Below are positions 2,431 to 8,170 of a stretch of 64,000 nt of DNA, piece after piece; the first letter of the stretch is position 1; each line of letters opens with the position of its first letter. The notes below the pieces were generated by a model. It was given only the letters and a program-made list of their open reading frames with translations. It was not told where the DNA came from and made no database searches. Origin of the DNA: Halovenus aranensis (GTDB lineage Archaea; Halobacteriota; Halobacteria; Halobacteriales; Haloarculaceae); the NCBI RefSeq assembly GCF_900100385.1, contig NZ_FNFC01000011.1, positions 62,001-126,000 on the forward strand, read 5' to 3'. A program made the translations under genes and the position numbers.

Positions 2431-3033
2431 ATGAACAAACGCCTCTCGATTCCCGGCCCGCGTTCGCTCGATGCAACACTCGACACGACCGACAGTGACA
2501 CCGTTGTCGTCGCGTGCCCGCCACACCCCCAGTTCGGCGGCGACAGACACGATAGCCGCCTGACTGCCGTCAGCGACGGCCTGCTGGCAGAAGATATCGA
2601 CTGCCTCCGATTCGATTACGGCCCCTGGGACGACGGGCACGCCGAGCGACGAGACGTGAGTCAGGCCCTCTCCTGGGCGCGCGAGCGCTACGACGGCGTC
2701 GGGCTCTTTGGGTTCAGTTTCGGCGCGTCGATGTCGCTGCTCGCCAGTGCGAGCAACGAAGCCGCCACGCCAGACGTACTGTCCGTGCTGGCTCCTGCCG
2801 CACAGGTCACGTCAGACGACGACGTGGTCGGGGCGGTCGACGGTGTCAACTGCCCGGCACAGGTCGTCTACGGCGAACGCGACGACACCGCGCGCTGGGA
2901 ACCGGTCATCGAGCGCGCGCGTGAACGAGGGTTCGAGGTCGCGTCGTTCCCCGCCGACCACTTCTTCGTCGGCCAACAATCCAAGGTCGCGGAGACGATT
3001 GTCGACTTCCTTACCGACGCTCTCGGTAACTGA
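2431..3033 (+). CDS. alpha/beta hydrolase, dienelactone-hydrolase-like
   Basis: This is a 200-aa compact alpha/beta hydrolase. The nucleophile elbow GFSFGAS lies near residue 96, the probable acid is in the YGERDDTA segment near residue 150, and the catalytic His is in the FPADHFF segment near residue 176. The order matches the small dienelactone hydrolase/YcjY-like group. The substrate is unknown. It is separated by only 53 bp from the divergent PspA-like gene, so the two may share a control region. Confidence 0.85.
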   Translation: MNKRLSIPGPRSLDATLDTTDSDTVVVACPPHPQFGGDRHDSRLTAVSDGLLAEDIDCLRFDYGPWDDGHAERRDVSQALSWARERYDGVGLFGFSFGASMSLLASASNEAATPDVLSVLAPAAQVTSDDDVVGAVDGVNCPAQVVYGERDDTARWEPVIERARERGFEVASFPADHFFVGQQSKVAETIVDFLTDALGN

Positions 3034-3074
3034 ATCCGTCTCACGCTATATTGTACTTGGCCAACAGATAGACC

Positions 3075-3089
3075 GAATAACATTTATTC
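3075..3089. promoter_or_regulatory. perfect inverted repeat GAATAA-CAT-TTATTC
   Basis: A 6-bp inverted repeat with a 3-bp spacer lies in the 186-bp gap before the HTH regulator gene. It is followed by ACGG, so the local string TATTCACG also occurs in the 16-bp element before the gene at 3970. It may be an operator for the neighbouring regulator; this is inference from position and symmetry only. Confidence 0.35.
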
Positions 3090-3219
3090 ACGGACACAAA
3101 CCAGTCGGTAGCGACGATGCGGGCTGACCCGGGAGTTACGGCCGACGACAGGCGGCGACGCGGACCCGGGACACGTCCACGGTTAGGCAGGCAGCGATTC
3201 CACCGTACGGGGTAACCAC

Positions 3220-3867
3220 ATGTACGTCGAGTTTTACAACACTAGTGATGTTTTGCAGGAAACACTCAAGTCGTTTCCAGAGACGCGAGTCGATATCCGA
3301 GACCTGGCGACGAGCGCGAACACGAGCCTCAGACTCATCTGTGTCGTCAGAGGGACGAATCTGGCAGATTTCGTCGAAACGGCGGCCCACGACAAGATGG
3401 TCGAAAAGGTTGTCACGCTCTCTGACGAGGGAAACGGCGGCCTCGTCCGCCTGACGCTGGTCCCGGAGACAGTCGACCAGAAAGTCTACGAGACGGCGGT
3501 CGAACTCGACGGCCTGTACCTCAACGCCCGCAACACTGACCACGGCTGGTACGTCAAGATGAACTTTCCCGACAAACACGCGTTCCGGGCATTTCAGTCT
3601 CGCTCTGAGGAGTACGGCATGGACATCCAGCCAACGGTCGTCCGGGACCGCCAGTTCTTCCTCTCGGAGGAGGCGTTCGGACTGACCAGGAAACAACAGG
3701 AAGTCCTCGCCGAGGCCATCAAGTCGGGCTACTTCGAGGTCCCGCGCCGGGCCTCGCTGTCGGATGTCTCCGACCGTGTCGGCATCAGCGACCAGGCGGC
3801 TTCGGAACGCATCCGTCGGGGAATGAAGACACTCGCCGAAAACGGAGTCACCGATTACTTCGAGTGA
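3220..3867 (+). CDS. Bat-type helix-turn-helix transcriptional regulator
   Basis: This is a 215-aa haloarchaeal regulator of the HTH_10/Bat-like type. The C-terminal about 55 residues carry the signature LTRKQQEVLAEAIKSGYFEVPR followed by the helix-turn-helix (SDRVGISDQAASERIRRGM). The N-terminal about 150 residues are the uncharacterised sensory/bacterio-opsin-activator-type domain usual in this group. The gene opens a co-directional run with the 3970 protein, a chemotaxis transducer and a receiver protein. The inverted repeats near it (3075, 3915, 4571) are candidate targets. Confidence 0.88.
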   Translation: MYVEFYNTSDVLQETLKSFPETRVDIRDLATSANTSLRLICVVRGTNLADFVETAAHDKMVEKVVTLSDEGNGGLVRLTLVPETVDQKVYETAVELDGLYLNARNTDHGWYVKMNFPDKHAFRAFQSRSEEYGMDIQPTVVRDRQFFLSEEAFGLTRKQQEVLAEAIKSGYFEVPRRASLSDVSDRVGISDQAASERIRRGMKTLAENGVTDYFE

Positions 3868-3914
3868 CTCCGAACTGACCACTCTGGCAGGGATAGGTAA
3901 TGGAAACACTCATG

Positions 3915-3930
3915 TATGCATGTATATTCA
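3915..3930 (+). promoter_or_regulatory. 16-bp element, copy 1 (TATGCATGTATATTCA)
   Basis: The element lies 40 nt before the ATG at 3970. The reverse complement of 4571-4586 matches it at 15 of 16 positions. It contains the ATGCAT palindrome and a TATA-like core, so it could be a regulator operator overlapping the promoter. Function is inferred. Confidence 0.45.
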
Positions 3931-3969
3931 CGCAGTAGCCACTTTACCGCGTCCGGCCTTTCTCAGAGT

Positions 3970-4512
3970 ATGTCTGATTACGACCCGGACGCGGAAGCGA
4001 CTGGAAAGTATATGGTTGCGTTCATCGAGAGCGCAGGGAAAGTCTCCCCCGTCTTCGAGCGAAAGGTCCGCGAGATTTTCGAGAATCACATGGGCACCCT
4101 CGAAGAGGACTCCTGGTATCTCAACGCAAACGTCGAGAAGGCCTTCGACGAGGTGCTCGAGGAGGTCGGCGAGAAGACCATGATGGAAGGCGGCGTCGAA
4201 AGCGGCAAGGCAATCGACTGGCCCAACGAGGTCGAGACGGTCATGGACGGCTTCAACATCTGGAACACGTTCCACGAGGCCGCCTACCGCGACAGCGACC
4301 TCGATTTCCCCGCGGGCAGATACACTGTCGAGCACCTCGGCGACCGCAAGGTACGTATCGGTATCACCGAAGGGTACAACCTCAGTGCCGAGTTCGCCAA
4401 GGGTTGTTCGAAAGGGATTGTACAGGAGCTCAGCGACACGAGCAATCGAACCAGACTAGAGGATACTGAACCGAATCTCGACGAACAGGCCGCCTGGGTT
4501 CTCGAGTGGTGA
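3970..4512 (+). CDS. conserved-looking soluble protein of unknown function in a signalling cluster
   Basis: I do not recognise this 180-aa acidic protein. It has no signal peptide, membrane segment or known catalytic motif. The start at 3970 (MSDYDPDAEATGKY) is preferred over an in-frame upstream ATG at 3916, because that ATG lies inside the 16-bp promoter element. The predicted alpha-helical N-terminal half followed by a beta-rich C-terminal segment (GRYTVEHLGDRKVRIGITEG) would suit a small ligand-sensing domain, such as those of the V4R/heme-NO-binding type, but no diagnostic motif is visible. It lies between a Bat-type regulator and a soluble transducer and is bracketed by inverted 16-bp elements. 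Confidence 0.7.
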   Translation: MSDYDPDAEATGKYMVAFIESAGKVSPVFERKVREIFENHMGTLEEDSWYLNANVEKAFDEVLEEVGEKTMMEGGVESGKAIDWPNEVETVMDGFNIWNTFHEAAYRDSDLDFPAGRYTVEHLGDRKVRIGITEGYNLSAEFAKGCSKGIVQELSDTSNRTRLEDTEPNLDEQAAWVLEW

Positions 4513-4570
4513 GGGGCTGACTGTTAGGTCATCTCAGCGACGAACCGACGGGCGGTCCGCTCGATTTGGT

Positions 4571-4586
4571 TGAATATTCATGCATA
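4571..4586 (-). promoter_or_regulatory. 16-bp element, copy 2 (inverted)
   Basis: Read on the minus strand this is TATGCATGAATATTCA, one mismatch from copy 1 at 3915. On the plus strand it includes the perfect palindrome TGAATATTCA (4571-4580). It lies in the 216-bp gap between the 3970 gene and the transducer gene, about 143 nt before the transducer start. No gene is visible in this gap. Confidence 0.45.
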
Positions 4587-4728
4587 AACTATAATCGAAC
4601 ACCGCAATGTGAATAACCCGTAGGCGTGTTGACAGACCTATCGGCCTCAGAGAAGGGGCAGTTTCGGTGCCGAATCGCAGTTCTGGGGCACTATTGCATT
4701 CCGAGCGACACCCGTAGAGTGAACTGAG

Positions 4729-6039
4729 ATGACTGACATGGCATCTGTATCCGAAGCCGATGAATCGACACGAAAGACAATCGAGCAGATTCGACCGGCC
4801 GAGTTCGACTCCGACCCCGAACTGGAGCGTATCGTCGTCGACAGCGGCGACCGTGCGCTCGAACAGTACGTACAACGGACGGACTTCAACGGGAGGGCAC
4901 CGGAGCAGGTACAGTCGGAGTTACGAACCCAGTTCGAGGGCGTGCTATCGTCGGACGGGGCTGTGCGCACCGACGGCTGGGAGGTCCACCAAGAGACCGG
5001 GAGCTCGTTCCCGGAGTTCGTCGACCTCTATGCGTCATTTCTGGAGGAGTCTATCGGCGAACTCCTGGCCGAAGGCGACAACGAGGAGACCGCAGACCAG
5101 GTGACGGCGCTCGTTCGGGGTGCGCTGAGTGACATCGCCGCTGCAGGCGCGAGCCAAGAGTCGCACGACGACGACCTATCTGCCGAAAACGAAGAGCGCC
5201 TCGACGACGTCCAGCAGGCAGTCGATGACCTGCGGCTGTCGAGCGAAGATGTCTCCGACCGGACGAACACGGTAAACGACCTGCTCGACGGCCAGCAGCG
5301 CCAGGTTAGACAGATTTCCGAGGAAATCAGCACCTTCAGCGCCACAATCGAGGAGGTTGCCGCGAACTCGGAACAGGTCAACAAGACGAGTACGCGCGCG
5401 GAGACGCTCGCGTCCGAGGGGTACGAAACAGGCGAAGCGACGAACCAGCGGATGGAAGACGTCGAGCAGGCCCGGTCACAGGTCGAGGACGACTTCGAGG
5501 TGTTGGCCGAGAAAATCGAGCGCATCGACGAGATTGTCGAAGCCATCACCGACATCGCAGACCAGATTAACATGCTGGCGTTGAACGCCTCTATCGAGGC
5601 CGCTCGCGCCGGCGAAGCGGGTGAAGGGTTCGCCGTCGTCGCAAACGAAGTGAAGGCACTCGCCGAGGAGTCAAAGACCGAAGTCGAGAACATCGAGGAG
5701 CAGGTCGGCGAGATAAAGTCCGAGACGACAGATACGATTTCGAGTCTGAACGAGGTAAGCGAAGAAATCGAGGCCGCAAACGACCAGGTCGAGGAGATGA
5801 TGAACGCGCTGGGCGAGATTAGCGAGGCAAACGAGGAGGTGTCGACCGGCATCGACGAGGTTGCTATGGCGACCGAAGACCTGGCCTCCGGGAGCGAAGA
5901 GATTGCTTCGACAATCGACGAGGTGTCGAAAAACATCACCGAAATCGCCGAAGAGATGGACACCATCGCGGCGTCGAACGAGATGTTCGGCACGATAGTC
6001 GACGACGTGGAAACGCAGGTCAAGAACGTCCGCGAGTGA
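4729..6039 (+). CDS. soluble methyl-accepting chemotaxis-type transducer
   Basis: This is a 436-aa cytoplasmic transducer. There are no transmembrane segments. Residues about 1-140 are an N-terminal sensory region of unknown type. Residues about 150-430 are the coiled-coil signalling domain, with the hairpin tip sequence DQINMLALNASIEAARAGE that contacts CheA/CheW, followed by GFAVVANEVKALAEES. It therefore probably senses an internal cue and signals to the chemotaxis kinase. The receiver gene starts 4 nt after its stop, so the two are likely cotranscribed. I looked for a HemAT-type globin in the N-terminus and could not support one. Confidence 0.92.
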   Translation: MTDMASVSEADESTRKTIEQIRPAEFDSDPELERIVVDSGDRALEQYVQRTDFNGRAPEQVQSELRTQFEGVLSSDGAVRTDGWEVHQETGSSFPEFVDLYASFLEESIGELLAEGDNEETADQVTALVRGALSDIAAAGASQESHDDDLSAENEERLDDVQQAVDDLRLSSEDVSDRTNTVNDLLDGQQRQVRQISEEISTFSATIEEVAANSEQVNKTSTRAETLASEGYETGEATNQRMEDVEQARSQVEDDFEVLAEKIERIDEIVEAITDIADQINMLALNASIEAARAGEAGEGFAVVANEVKALAEESKTEVENIEEQVGEIKSETTDTISSLNEVSEEIEAANDQVEEMMNALGEISEANEEVSTGIDEVAMATEDLASGSEEIASTIDEVSKNITEIAEEMDTIAASNEMFGTIVDDVETQVKNVRE

Positions 6040-6043
6040 ACAA

Positions 6044-6457
6044 ATGGGAGTCACTCACAGCAGGACAGCCGACACCGGGGCAGACATTTGTGTCCTTCAC
6101 GTCGATGACAATCCGGACATGCTCTCGCTAACGGCGACGTTACTCGAGGACGAAGACGACCGGATTACGGTACGCTCTGAGGCAGAGCCAGCGGCCGCTC
6201 TCGAGGCTATCGAACAGCAACGGGTCGACTGTGTCCTCAGCGACTACGAGATGCCAGAGATGAACGGCCCAGCGTTCTTTACCGCGGTCCGGCGGGTCGA
6301 CGAGACTGTCCCGTTCGTGTTGTTTACACAGAAAGCGTCTCCCGAGATGACCGACATCGACGCCGAACAGCTCGACGGTCACGTCCGAAAACGCGGCTCG
6401 ACCGAACAGTACGCCCGCCTGGCCGAGCGTATCCTCGAACACGTAAAAAGCGCATAG
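6044..6457 (+). CDS. receiver-domain response regulator (stand-alone)
   Basis: This is a 137-aa protein made of a single CheY-like receiver. Acidic-pocket residues are in HVDDNPD (about residue 25). The phospho-acceptor Asp is in LSDYEMPEMNG (about 68), followed by a Thr in LFT (about 93) and the switch Lys in HVRKRG. There is no output domain, so it probably acts through protein contact, plausibly with the upstream transducer system, from which only 4 nt separate it. Confidence 0.9.
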   Translation: MGVTHSRTADTGADICVLHVDDNPDMLSLTATLLEDEDDRITVRSEAEPAAALEAIEQQRVDCVLSDYEMPEMNGPAFFTAVRRVDETVPFVLFTQKASPEMTDIDAEQLDGHVRKRGSTEQYARLAERILEHVKSA

Positions 6458-6541
6458 ACGAGTCCCACCCGGCCCGAGTGAACAGCTCACGCGGGGGACG
6501 CGGTCCGAAACGGTTTTGCCCGTTGCCAGCACACGGTCGAT

Positions 6542-8170
6542 ATGCCGACAGATACAGAGTACGATCCGAGTCTGGGTCGGAAGTTCATTTTTGTCACAGG
6601 CGGGGTCATGTCCGGACTCGGCAAGGGCATTACCGCGGCGAGTACCGGGCGACTGCTGGCAAATGCCGGCTTCGACGTGACCGCCGTCAAGATTGACCCG
6701 TATCTCAACGTCGATGCGGGGACGATGAACCCGTTCCAACACGGCGAGGTGTACGTCTTGAAAGACGGCGGCGAGGTCGACCTCGATTTGGGGAACTACG
6801 AGCGATTCCTCGATATCGATATGACCTCGGACCACAACGTCACCACCGGGAAGGTCTACCGCCAGGTCATCGAAAAGGAGCGAGCCGGGGACTACCTCGG
6901 CAAGACCGTCCAGATTATCCCACACATCACCGACGACATCAAGCGCCGGGTCCGCGAGGCCGCGGCCGGCAGCGACGTGTGTATCATCGAGGTCGGCGGG
7001 ACCGTCGGCGACATCGAGGGGATGCCGTATCTGGAGGCGCTTCGACAGTTCGCCCACGAGGAAGACGACGACGATATCCTCTTTGCACACGTGACACTCG
7101 TCCCCTACTCGAAAAACGGCGAACAGAAGACCAAACCCACACAACACAGCGTCAAGGAACTCCGGAGCATCGGCCTCCAGCCGGACGTTCTCGTCGGCCG
7201 GTGTCCGGACCCACTCGATGCACAGACCCGCGAGAAGATTGCGCTGTTCTGTGACGTACCCCACGAGGCGGTGTTCTCGAACCCGGATGTCGAAGACATC
7301 TATCACGTTCCGCTTCGCCTCCAGGAAGAGGAACTCGACGACTACGTCATGGACTACCTCGGCCTCGAAGACGAGGCGGCCCCAGTCGGCCAGCGAGACA
7401 CCGAGTGGCGTGACCGCGTGACCCGGGCGACCGAGGAGACCGTCAAGGTCGCACTGGTCGGCAAGTACGGCCTCGAAGACGCATATATCTCGATTCACGA
7501 GGCACTCAAACACGCCGGTCTAGAGTGTAACGTCGAGGTCGAGCGCGAGTGGATTCACTCGGAGAACCTCGCCGACGGCGAGGACAGCGAACTCGACGGT
7601 ATCGACGGCATCGTCGTGCCGGGCGGCTTTGGTTCGCGTGGCACAGAGGGCAAAATCGAAGCAATCCGTTATGCCCGCGAGAACGACGTGCCCTTCCTCG
7701 GGCTCTGTCTCGGCTTCCAGATGGCCGTCGTCGAGTTCGCCCGAAACGTCCTCGGACTGGAGGGCGCACACTCGGCAGAACTCGAAGAGGAAACGCCGTA
7801 CCCGGTCATCGACCTGTTGCCCGAACAGGAGGACTTCGACGACATGGGTGGGACGATGCGCCTGGGAACACACGTCACCGAAATCACAGCGGGGACGCTC
7901 GCGGCAGACCTCTACGATGACACGACCTGTCAGGAGCGACACCGCCACCGCTACGAGGTCAACCCCGAGTATATCGATGACCTCGAAGACAACGGTCTCG
8001 TGTTTTCGGGTGCCTCTGGACGGCGGATGGAGATTCTGGAGCTGCCAGACCACCCCTACTTCTTGGGGACGCAGTTCCATCCGGAGTTCCGGTCGCGGCC
8101 GACGCGAGCGAGTCCACCCTTTGTCGGATTCGTCGACGCTATCAGTGCGGCCGACGGAGGTGCGTACTGA
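6542..8170 (+). CDS. pyrG: CTP synthase
   Basis: This is a 542-aa CTP synthase, converting UTP, ATP and glutamine to CTP in pyrimidine nucleotide synthesis. The N-terminal synthetase domain has the P-loop-like [11 protein letters not shown] near residue 20 and the [14 protein letters not shown] segment. The C-terminal class I glutamine amidotransferase domain shows the nucleophile in GLCLGFQ (about residue 385) and the HPEF pair near residue 515. Length is normal. Its TGA overlaps the ATG of guaA by one base (TGATG), so the two are translationally coupled. Confidence 0.98.

Follow-up and report, generated by a model that had tools for sequence, protein, structure and literature searches.

Does the pair of inverted 16-bp sequences bracketing a 180-aa gene of Halovenus aranensis form a looping operator, does it mark the ends of a small insertion, or does each copy serve a promoter of its own? 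The window, i.e. the whole stretch of 64,000 nucleotides analysed here (contig NZ_FNFC01000011.1, positions 62,001 to 126,000), displayed TATGCATGTATATTCA at 3915-3930 (+) and TATGCATGAATATTCA at 4571-4586 (-), which confirmed the original prediction of two copies in opposite orientation with 15 out of 16 identical positions. When up to three mismatches were allowed, the 16-mer matched the window three times against 0.08 expected, and none of 100 shuffled sequences contained three matches or more. The conserved unit is located 3 bp to the right of this initial register and consists of a near-palindromic dyad, GCATG-N6-CATGC (Table 1). Both copies read almost alike on the two strands, so their relative orientation says little and the "inverted pair" constitutes no evidence for either looping or insertion ends. 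When promoters were tested for palindromes of any kind, the dyad of the window was not outstanding (p 0.611).

Table 1. Features of the dyad locus (positions in the window; fold, promoter and operator assignments are predictions).
Feature	Position	Strand	Remarks
Bat-type regulator, 215 aa (BAT + HTH_10)	3220-3867	+	Pfam; first candidate for dyad binding; member of the linked clade
Dyad 1, GCATGTATATTCACGC	3918-3933	.	9/10 arm bases; 36 bp before ATG 3970 (37-52 bp upstream); proposed operator or upstream activating site
H-NOX-fold protein gene, 180 aa	3970-4512	+	member of a family of 20 paralogues; fold predicted
Dyad 2, GGTTGAATATTCATGC	4568-4583	.	8/10 arm bases (by inspection); 145 bp before transducer ATG 4729
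TATA-like CTATAAT	4589-4595	+	5 nt after dyad 2; putative core promoter of the transducer
Methyl-accepting chemotaxis transducer	4729-6039	+	MCPsignal 1.7e-39, residues 236-401 (Pfam)
Response regulator receiver protein	6044-6457	+	Response_reg 1.2e-17 (Pfam)

An 88% orthologue of the 180-aa protein was encountered in Halovenus salina JCM 30072 and the motif is conserved upstream of it: dyad 1 was identical at 15/16 positions, as compared with 45/94 over the other positions of the 110-bp upstream stretch. Promoters of nine gene pairs from the two species were aligned, five of which displayed the GCATG dyad. In these five, the dyads were identical at 73 out of 80 positions (15, 14, 14, 15 and 15 of 16 per pair) and their arms at 48 out of 50, against 233/470 in the remaining promoter DNA (45, 48, 53, 41 and 46 of the other 94 bases). 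The second window copy was kept in H. salina as GTTGAATATTCATGCA (16/16), together with the TATAAT that follows it, and both copies are about 650 bp apart in each species. Such conservation within otherwise diverged promoter DNA, combined with the recurrence of the element upstream of paralogues elsewhere, identifies GCATG-N6-CATGC, at the level of sequence comparison, as a conserved cis-regulatory element and not an insertion end, and supports the operator reading. As judged by eye, one of the four other aligned pairs kept a different palindrome, CTGCATATGCAG, one kept scattered blocks, one aligned poorly and one looked coding.

The mechanically called ORF begins at 3916, inside the motif, and its frame is open in both species, which would allow the motif at 3915 to be preserved as the translated start of an 18-residue extension (ATG 3916). 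Substitutions separating the two species were distributed over codon positions as 7/5/5 in the 54 nt upstream of 3970, as opposed to 10/2/47 over the initial 450 nt of the gene, and the start at 3970 is supported because these 54 nt lack a third-position excess. With, in addition, a stop codon closing the frame ahead of the ATG in three of the ten dyad promoters and a dyad 2 lying outside called genes, a translated extension is highly improbable.

The initial 16-mer, whose sequence had been fixed before the family of the 180-aa protein was known, displayed 12 matches with up to three mismatches in the genome outside the window. Three of them preceded family starts by no more than 120 bp (binomial 8.5e-8, or 3.5e-5 for the two that are left when one touching a start is omitted), and the motif was thus not scattered at random. 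In counts made with the dyad consensus, which are not independent because it was derived from these same family promoters, the exact dyad occurred at two sites in the 3.29 Mb genome, 40 and 51 bp before family paralogues, and at three sites in H. salina, two of them 40-51 bp before family genes. By the same measure, seven out of 20 family promoters of H. aranensis reached p <= 0.05 against their own shuffles. Dyads with one mismatch numbered 26 in this genome, including the window site, a site preceding family gene C28_84566 by 9 bp and a site (9/10; C42:178853-178868) 47 bp before HTH_10 gene C42_178179, the neighbour of family gene C42_177550. The context was determined for 19 of the 23 remaining sites, 14 being inside rough ORF calls and five intergenic or at gene edges.

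Besides the gene in the window, clear dyads preceded C7_107166, C42_62363, C42_273283 and C25_86464, making five genes in all, the other four with one copy each within the 120 bp scanned. None of the six other HTH_10-linked family genes exceeded 7/10 for the GCATG dyad. All five dyad genes share one region of the family tree, and common promoter descent therefore contributes to the pattern. A broader rule, by which each paralogue promoter would bear a palindrome of its own, appeared weak: p was under 0.05 for 3/19 promoters, with a combined value of 0.052, against 1/29 controls; C14_76687 was left out of the count since its upstream DNA looks coding. This slight enrichment, the clustering in the tree and the TATATT contained in the window copy would suit dyads that are a conserved core-promoter peculiarity, inherited via gene duplications and served by no dedicated regulator. 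This reading is quite unlikely, as it accounts poorly for arms so much better conserved between species than the remaining promoter and for the conserved copy borne by the transducer, which lies outside the family.

The two conserved copies, similarly spaced in both species, could also act as a paired operator looping the 640 bp in between. Looping is unlikely, given that each copy has an ordinary promoter location of its own and that the four other clear dyad genes have one within the 120 bp scanned. Even less room is left for a small insertion with the 180-aa gene inside and the two copies as its ends, to which we assign an almost negligible probability: the opposite orientation of the copies flanking this gene is meaningless for near-palindromes, and the paralogue copies are single and promoter-placed. 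The proposed verification, namely whether relatives precisely lack segment 3915-4586, was carried out on nine congener loci (of 16 congeners besides H. salina in the genus search). The hydrolase located at 2431-3033 in the window directly adjoins pyrG in six of them, while in the other three (G007, G013 and G017) different genes lie between, none of which matched a query for regulator, family, transducer or response regulator. None of the nine loci had the regulator or the transducer while being devoid of the bracketed segment. As the entire regulator-sensor-transducer-response-regulator block was missing, the variable unit is this block and not 3915-4586, and the idea of a small insertion received no support.

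The interval from hydrolase to pyrG (window 3033-6542) is variable within the genus. Regulator, H-NOX-fold gene and transducer are found together both here and in H. salina, where the transducer orthologue occupies the same place and no counterpart of the response regulator was called between transducer and pyrG. The N-terminal 165 residues of the transducer (window 4729-5223) are 63% identical to those of this orthologue; no convincing Pfam domain match was obtained outside the signalling part, and a two-sequence structure model of the N-terminal part was too poor to use (pLDDT 46).

The family to which the 180-aa protein belongs comprised 20 copies in H. aranensis and ten in H. salina in whole-genome searches. 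Of 59 relatives listed, 11 had a match at E <= 0.001. Class-wide, a member was detected in 84 out of 292 genomes searched, with a single one in 73 of these 84; in another genus, two genomes had at least eight members each, 11 being the largest number of candidates scored per genome. The window protein matched neither Pfam nor NCBIfam at E <= 1. Its AlphaFold2 model, built on a 25-row alignment (pLDDT 95.2, pTM 0.90), was searched with Foldseek (E 5.9e-5, TM 0.64), and the best 39 matches were H-NOX proteins or guanylate-cyclase chains. VIA-align gave Z 12.6 and rmsd 3.5 over 163 aligned residues of 3nvr_A; its rows 1-37 were H-NOX or guanylate-cyclase H-NOX domains and row 38 was VirS (Z 9.8). 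VirS, TRAPP/Bet3 and BcsD chains, with lower Z values (9.8 and below), were not preferred as fold matches. An H-NOX fold is therefore predicted over the whole domain, residues 10-180 resembling H-NOX and the heme domain of soluble guanylate cyclase.

H-NOX proteins are characterised by the heme-propionate motif YxSxR and a proximal histidine, and in bacteria free-standing H-NOX sensor genes are known beside signalling genes. Unlike them, the family displayed no YxSxR motif in columns 132-136 across 79 distinct rows; in a weak alignment to H-NOX chain 6ocv (E 0.37), the window residues ITEGY were opposite YQSKR and His102 was opposite the 6ocv histidine. The proximal-His column was variable (Tyr in 39 and His in 28 of the 79 rows); Gly12, Gly75, Gly116, Gly145 and Trp180 were present in at least 72. 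Pfam HNOB (PF07700) had no match at E <= 1 in either Halovenus genome. DUF2378 (PF09536) matched two out of 25 members (best 3.7e-5), the window protein not being among them; genome-wide, it had no match in H. aranensis and one place over the cut-off in H. salina, only when its neighbours were included in the frame. Given the absence of PF07700 and YxSxR, the variable histidine and the marginal DUF2378 matches, the family is, on its predicted structure, H-NOX-fold and not H-NOX. A literature search pairing H-NOX with haloarchaea returned nothing, from which no wider absence from print is claimed.

Cysteine occupied each of columns 134 and 140 in 30 of the 79 rows; the window protein has Glu and Ala there. 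Both columns lie in a CxxxPYPC-like stretch, and L074 displayed a further Cys pair near its C-terminus. In the 25-row Halovenus alignment, the pair formed by columns 134 and 140 was encountered solely in C28_72351. It is similar to the Cys cluster reported for V4R-type domains, and in this respect some family members are like V4R and MetOD1, which are, as is DUF2378, relatives of HNOB (MetOD1: PMC5847659). The window protein differs from both in lacking these cysteines and in not being fused to a receiver domain. The report on MetOD1 also deals with BAT-HTH_10 architectures in Halobacteria and with an HNOB/V4R-like domain in methanogens (PMC5847659).

Which protein could recognise the dyad? 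Both domains of the 3220-3867 protein scored over their Pfam cut-offs (HTH_10 60.4 bits for a cut-off of 23.1, BAT 30.1 bits for 25.8). The genome encodes 28 HTH_10 domains, which were found within 1 kb of seven out of 20 family genes, against about 0.46 expected (chance about 2e-7); in H. salina, four out of ten family genes adjoin three HTH_10 genes. Only two further proteins of H. aranensis matched the 3220-3867 protein at E <= 1e-20 (C7, 44%; C53, 33%), and both are encoded beside family genes. The seven linked regulators formed one clade among the 28 (FastTree 0.951), which none of 200,000 random sets of seven did. Ten linked regulators, including three from H. salina, also grouped into a clade with two unlinked congener homologues (UFBoot 94). 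Linkage and clade together make the Bat-type regulator a credible candidate, as had been proposed. Three results speak against a strict pairing of regulator and partner. Distances among regulators and among their partners were not correlated in a mirror-tree comparison (r = -0.20; 3771 of 5040 permutations do as well). Congeners G007 and G013 displayed regulator homologues (45% and 42%) and no family gene. Near the family genes of five other genomes (G210, G164, G212, G050 and G185), a local HTH_10 profile that recovers 28/28 HTH_10 of H. aranensis found no HTH_10 for any of 21 family genes within stretches of 5-5.5 kb; the linkage was consequently seen in Halovenus only.

The reading we favour, with moderate confidence, is that the shared dyad serves as an operator or activating site for a Bat-type regulator, through which sensor genes and transducer would be switched together. 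GCATG-N6-CATGC is a palindromic promoter element common to part of the H-NOX-fold family and to the upstream region of the transducer, and it would be bound by an HTH_10 dimer, for which the 3220-3867 product is the first candidate. From its position beside the core promoter, this operator or upstream activating site would put the 180-aa gene, the transducer and a number of unlinked paralogues under joint control. The H-NOX-fold protein may itself sense a small ligand, which need not be a gas bound to heme, and would act in trans on the linked regulator or the transducer.

A different, unlinked regulator might occupy the dyad instead, the neighbouring Bat-type gene being a bystander, an alternative that we consider possible, if doubtful. 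A 16-bp palindrome suits many helix-turn-helix dimers, and the third exact dyad of H. salina is found 234 bp beyond a gene that, on visual inspection, resembles TetR genes. Moreover, four out of five clear dyad genes (C7_107166, C42_62363, C42_273283 and C25_86464) have no HTH_10 within 1 kb, so that the regulator would have to act in trans or be another protein. Against a bystander, the linked HTH_10 genes are one clade, and one of them, C42_178179, has the near-complete dyad mentioned above shortly before its own start. Among six linked regulators of H. aranensis that were scanned (C7_115186 was left out), it was the only one above 7/10 upstream.

The further suggestion that the regulator controls itself through a partial match near 3086 was contradicted. 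TATTCACG is located at 3085-3092, and it was not conserved before the H. salina orthologue even though the surrounding DNA aligns; the best dyad within 150 bp upstream of the regulator reached 7/10.

A wider and more speculative picture, to which we give low confidence, would be an intracellular signalling network private to Halovenus. In it, about 20 stand-alone H-NOX-fold sensors, having lost the standard heme motif, would each be tuned to a ligand of their own and be read out by a dedicated branch of Bat-type regulators and at least one soluble chemotaxis transducer, while a shared operator would cross-wire them, one sensor-regulator pair setting the levels of several others. A fold known mainly for NO and O2 sensing would thereby have multiplied in an archaeon as independent modules and been joined to a regulator branch of its own. 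To our knowledge, most Bat-type regulators lack a known signal; ligand, regulator and promoters would become concrete targets for them, and the defined 16-bp site would allow a direct test of the sensor-regulator pairing.

The 3220-3867 protein consists of just BAT and HTH_10, like NarO and DmsR, which are described as haloarchaeal Bat-type HTH_10 regulators without PAS and GAF (PMC11218638). A regulatory site is likewise described upstream of bop (PMC3184054, PMC1447603). In contrast to Bat, NarO and DmsR, the linked clade described here adjoins H-NOX-fold genes.

Comparable elements are documented in other haloarchaeal promoters. The semi-palindrome CGAAYATDKTYG is located 66-79 nt before the ATG in three out of four denitrification promoters of Haloferax mediterranei; its mutation significantly lowered activity in two of the four, and the regulator was not identified in H. 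mediterranei (PMC10062603). The dyad resembles it in being short, palindromic and comparably placed in a number of promoters, but its sequence differs and the genes carrying CGAAYATDKTYG encode denitrification enzymes (PMC10062603). The activating sequence of GvpE, about 20 nt long, is adjacent to BRE/TATA of gas-vesicle promoters (PMC9501494). It shares with the dyad a TATA-adjacent position in a haloarchaeal promoter, but its sequence and its activator, GvpE, are others; the activator proposed for the dyad is putative, as is the direction of its effect.

In ten promoters, the dyads ended 36-51 bp before the start codon. A TATA-like stretch often followed, at about -27; TATA geometry varied: of the 7-mers downstream of the dyad, the one richest in AT was located at -36 to -21 in seven of the ten. 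Leaderless transcripts are common in haloarchaea, and a TATA-like stretch at about -27 would fit them as well as an activating site beside TATA. Other palindromes were encountered in the family. Upstream of the tandem second copy C7_106516 (C7:106516-107055), a perfect 14-bp palindrome, GCAACAATTGTTGC, precedes the ATG by 37 bp (p 0.003 against shuffles), and family members in two f17 genomes (L117 and L120) were preceded, as seen by eye, by a different AT-rich palindrome of the TTATCA...TGATAA type.
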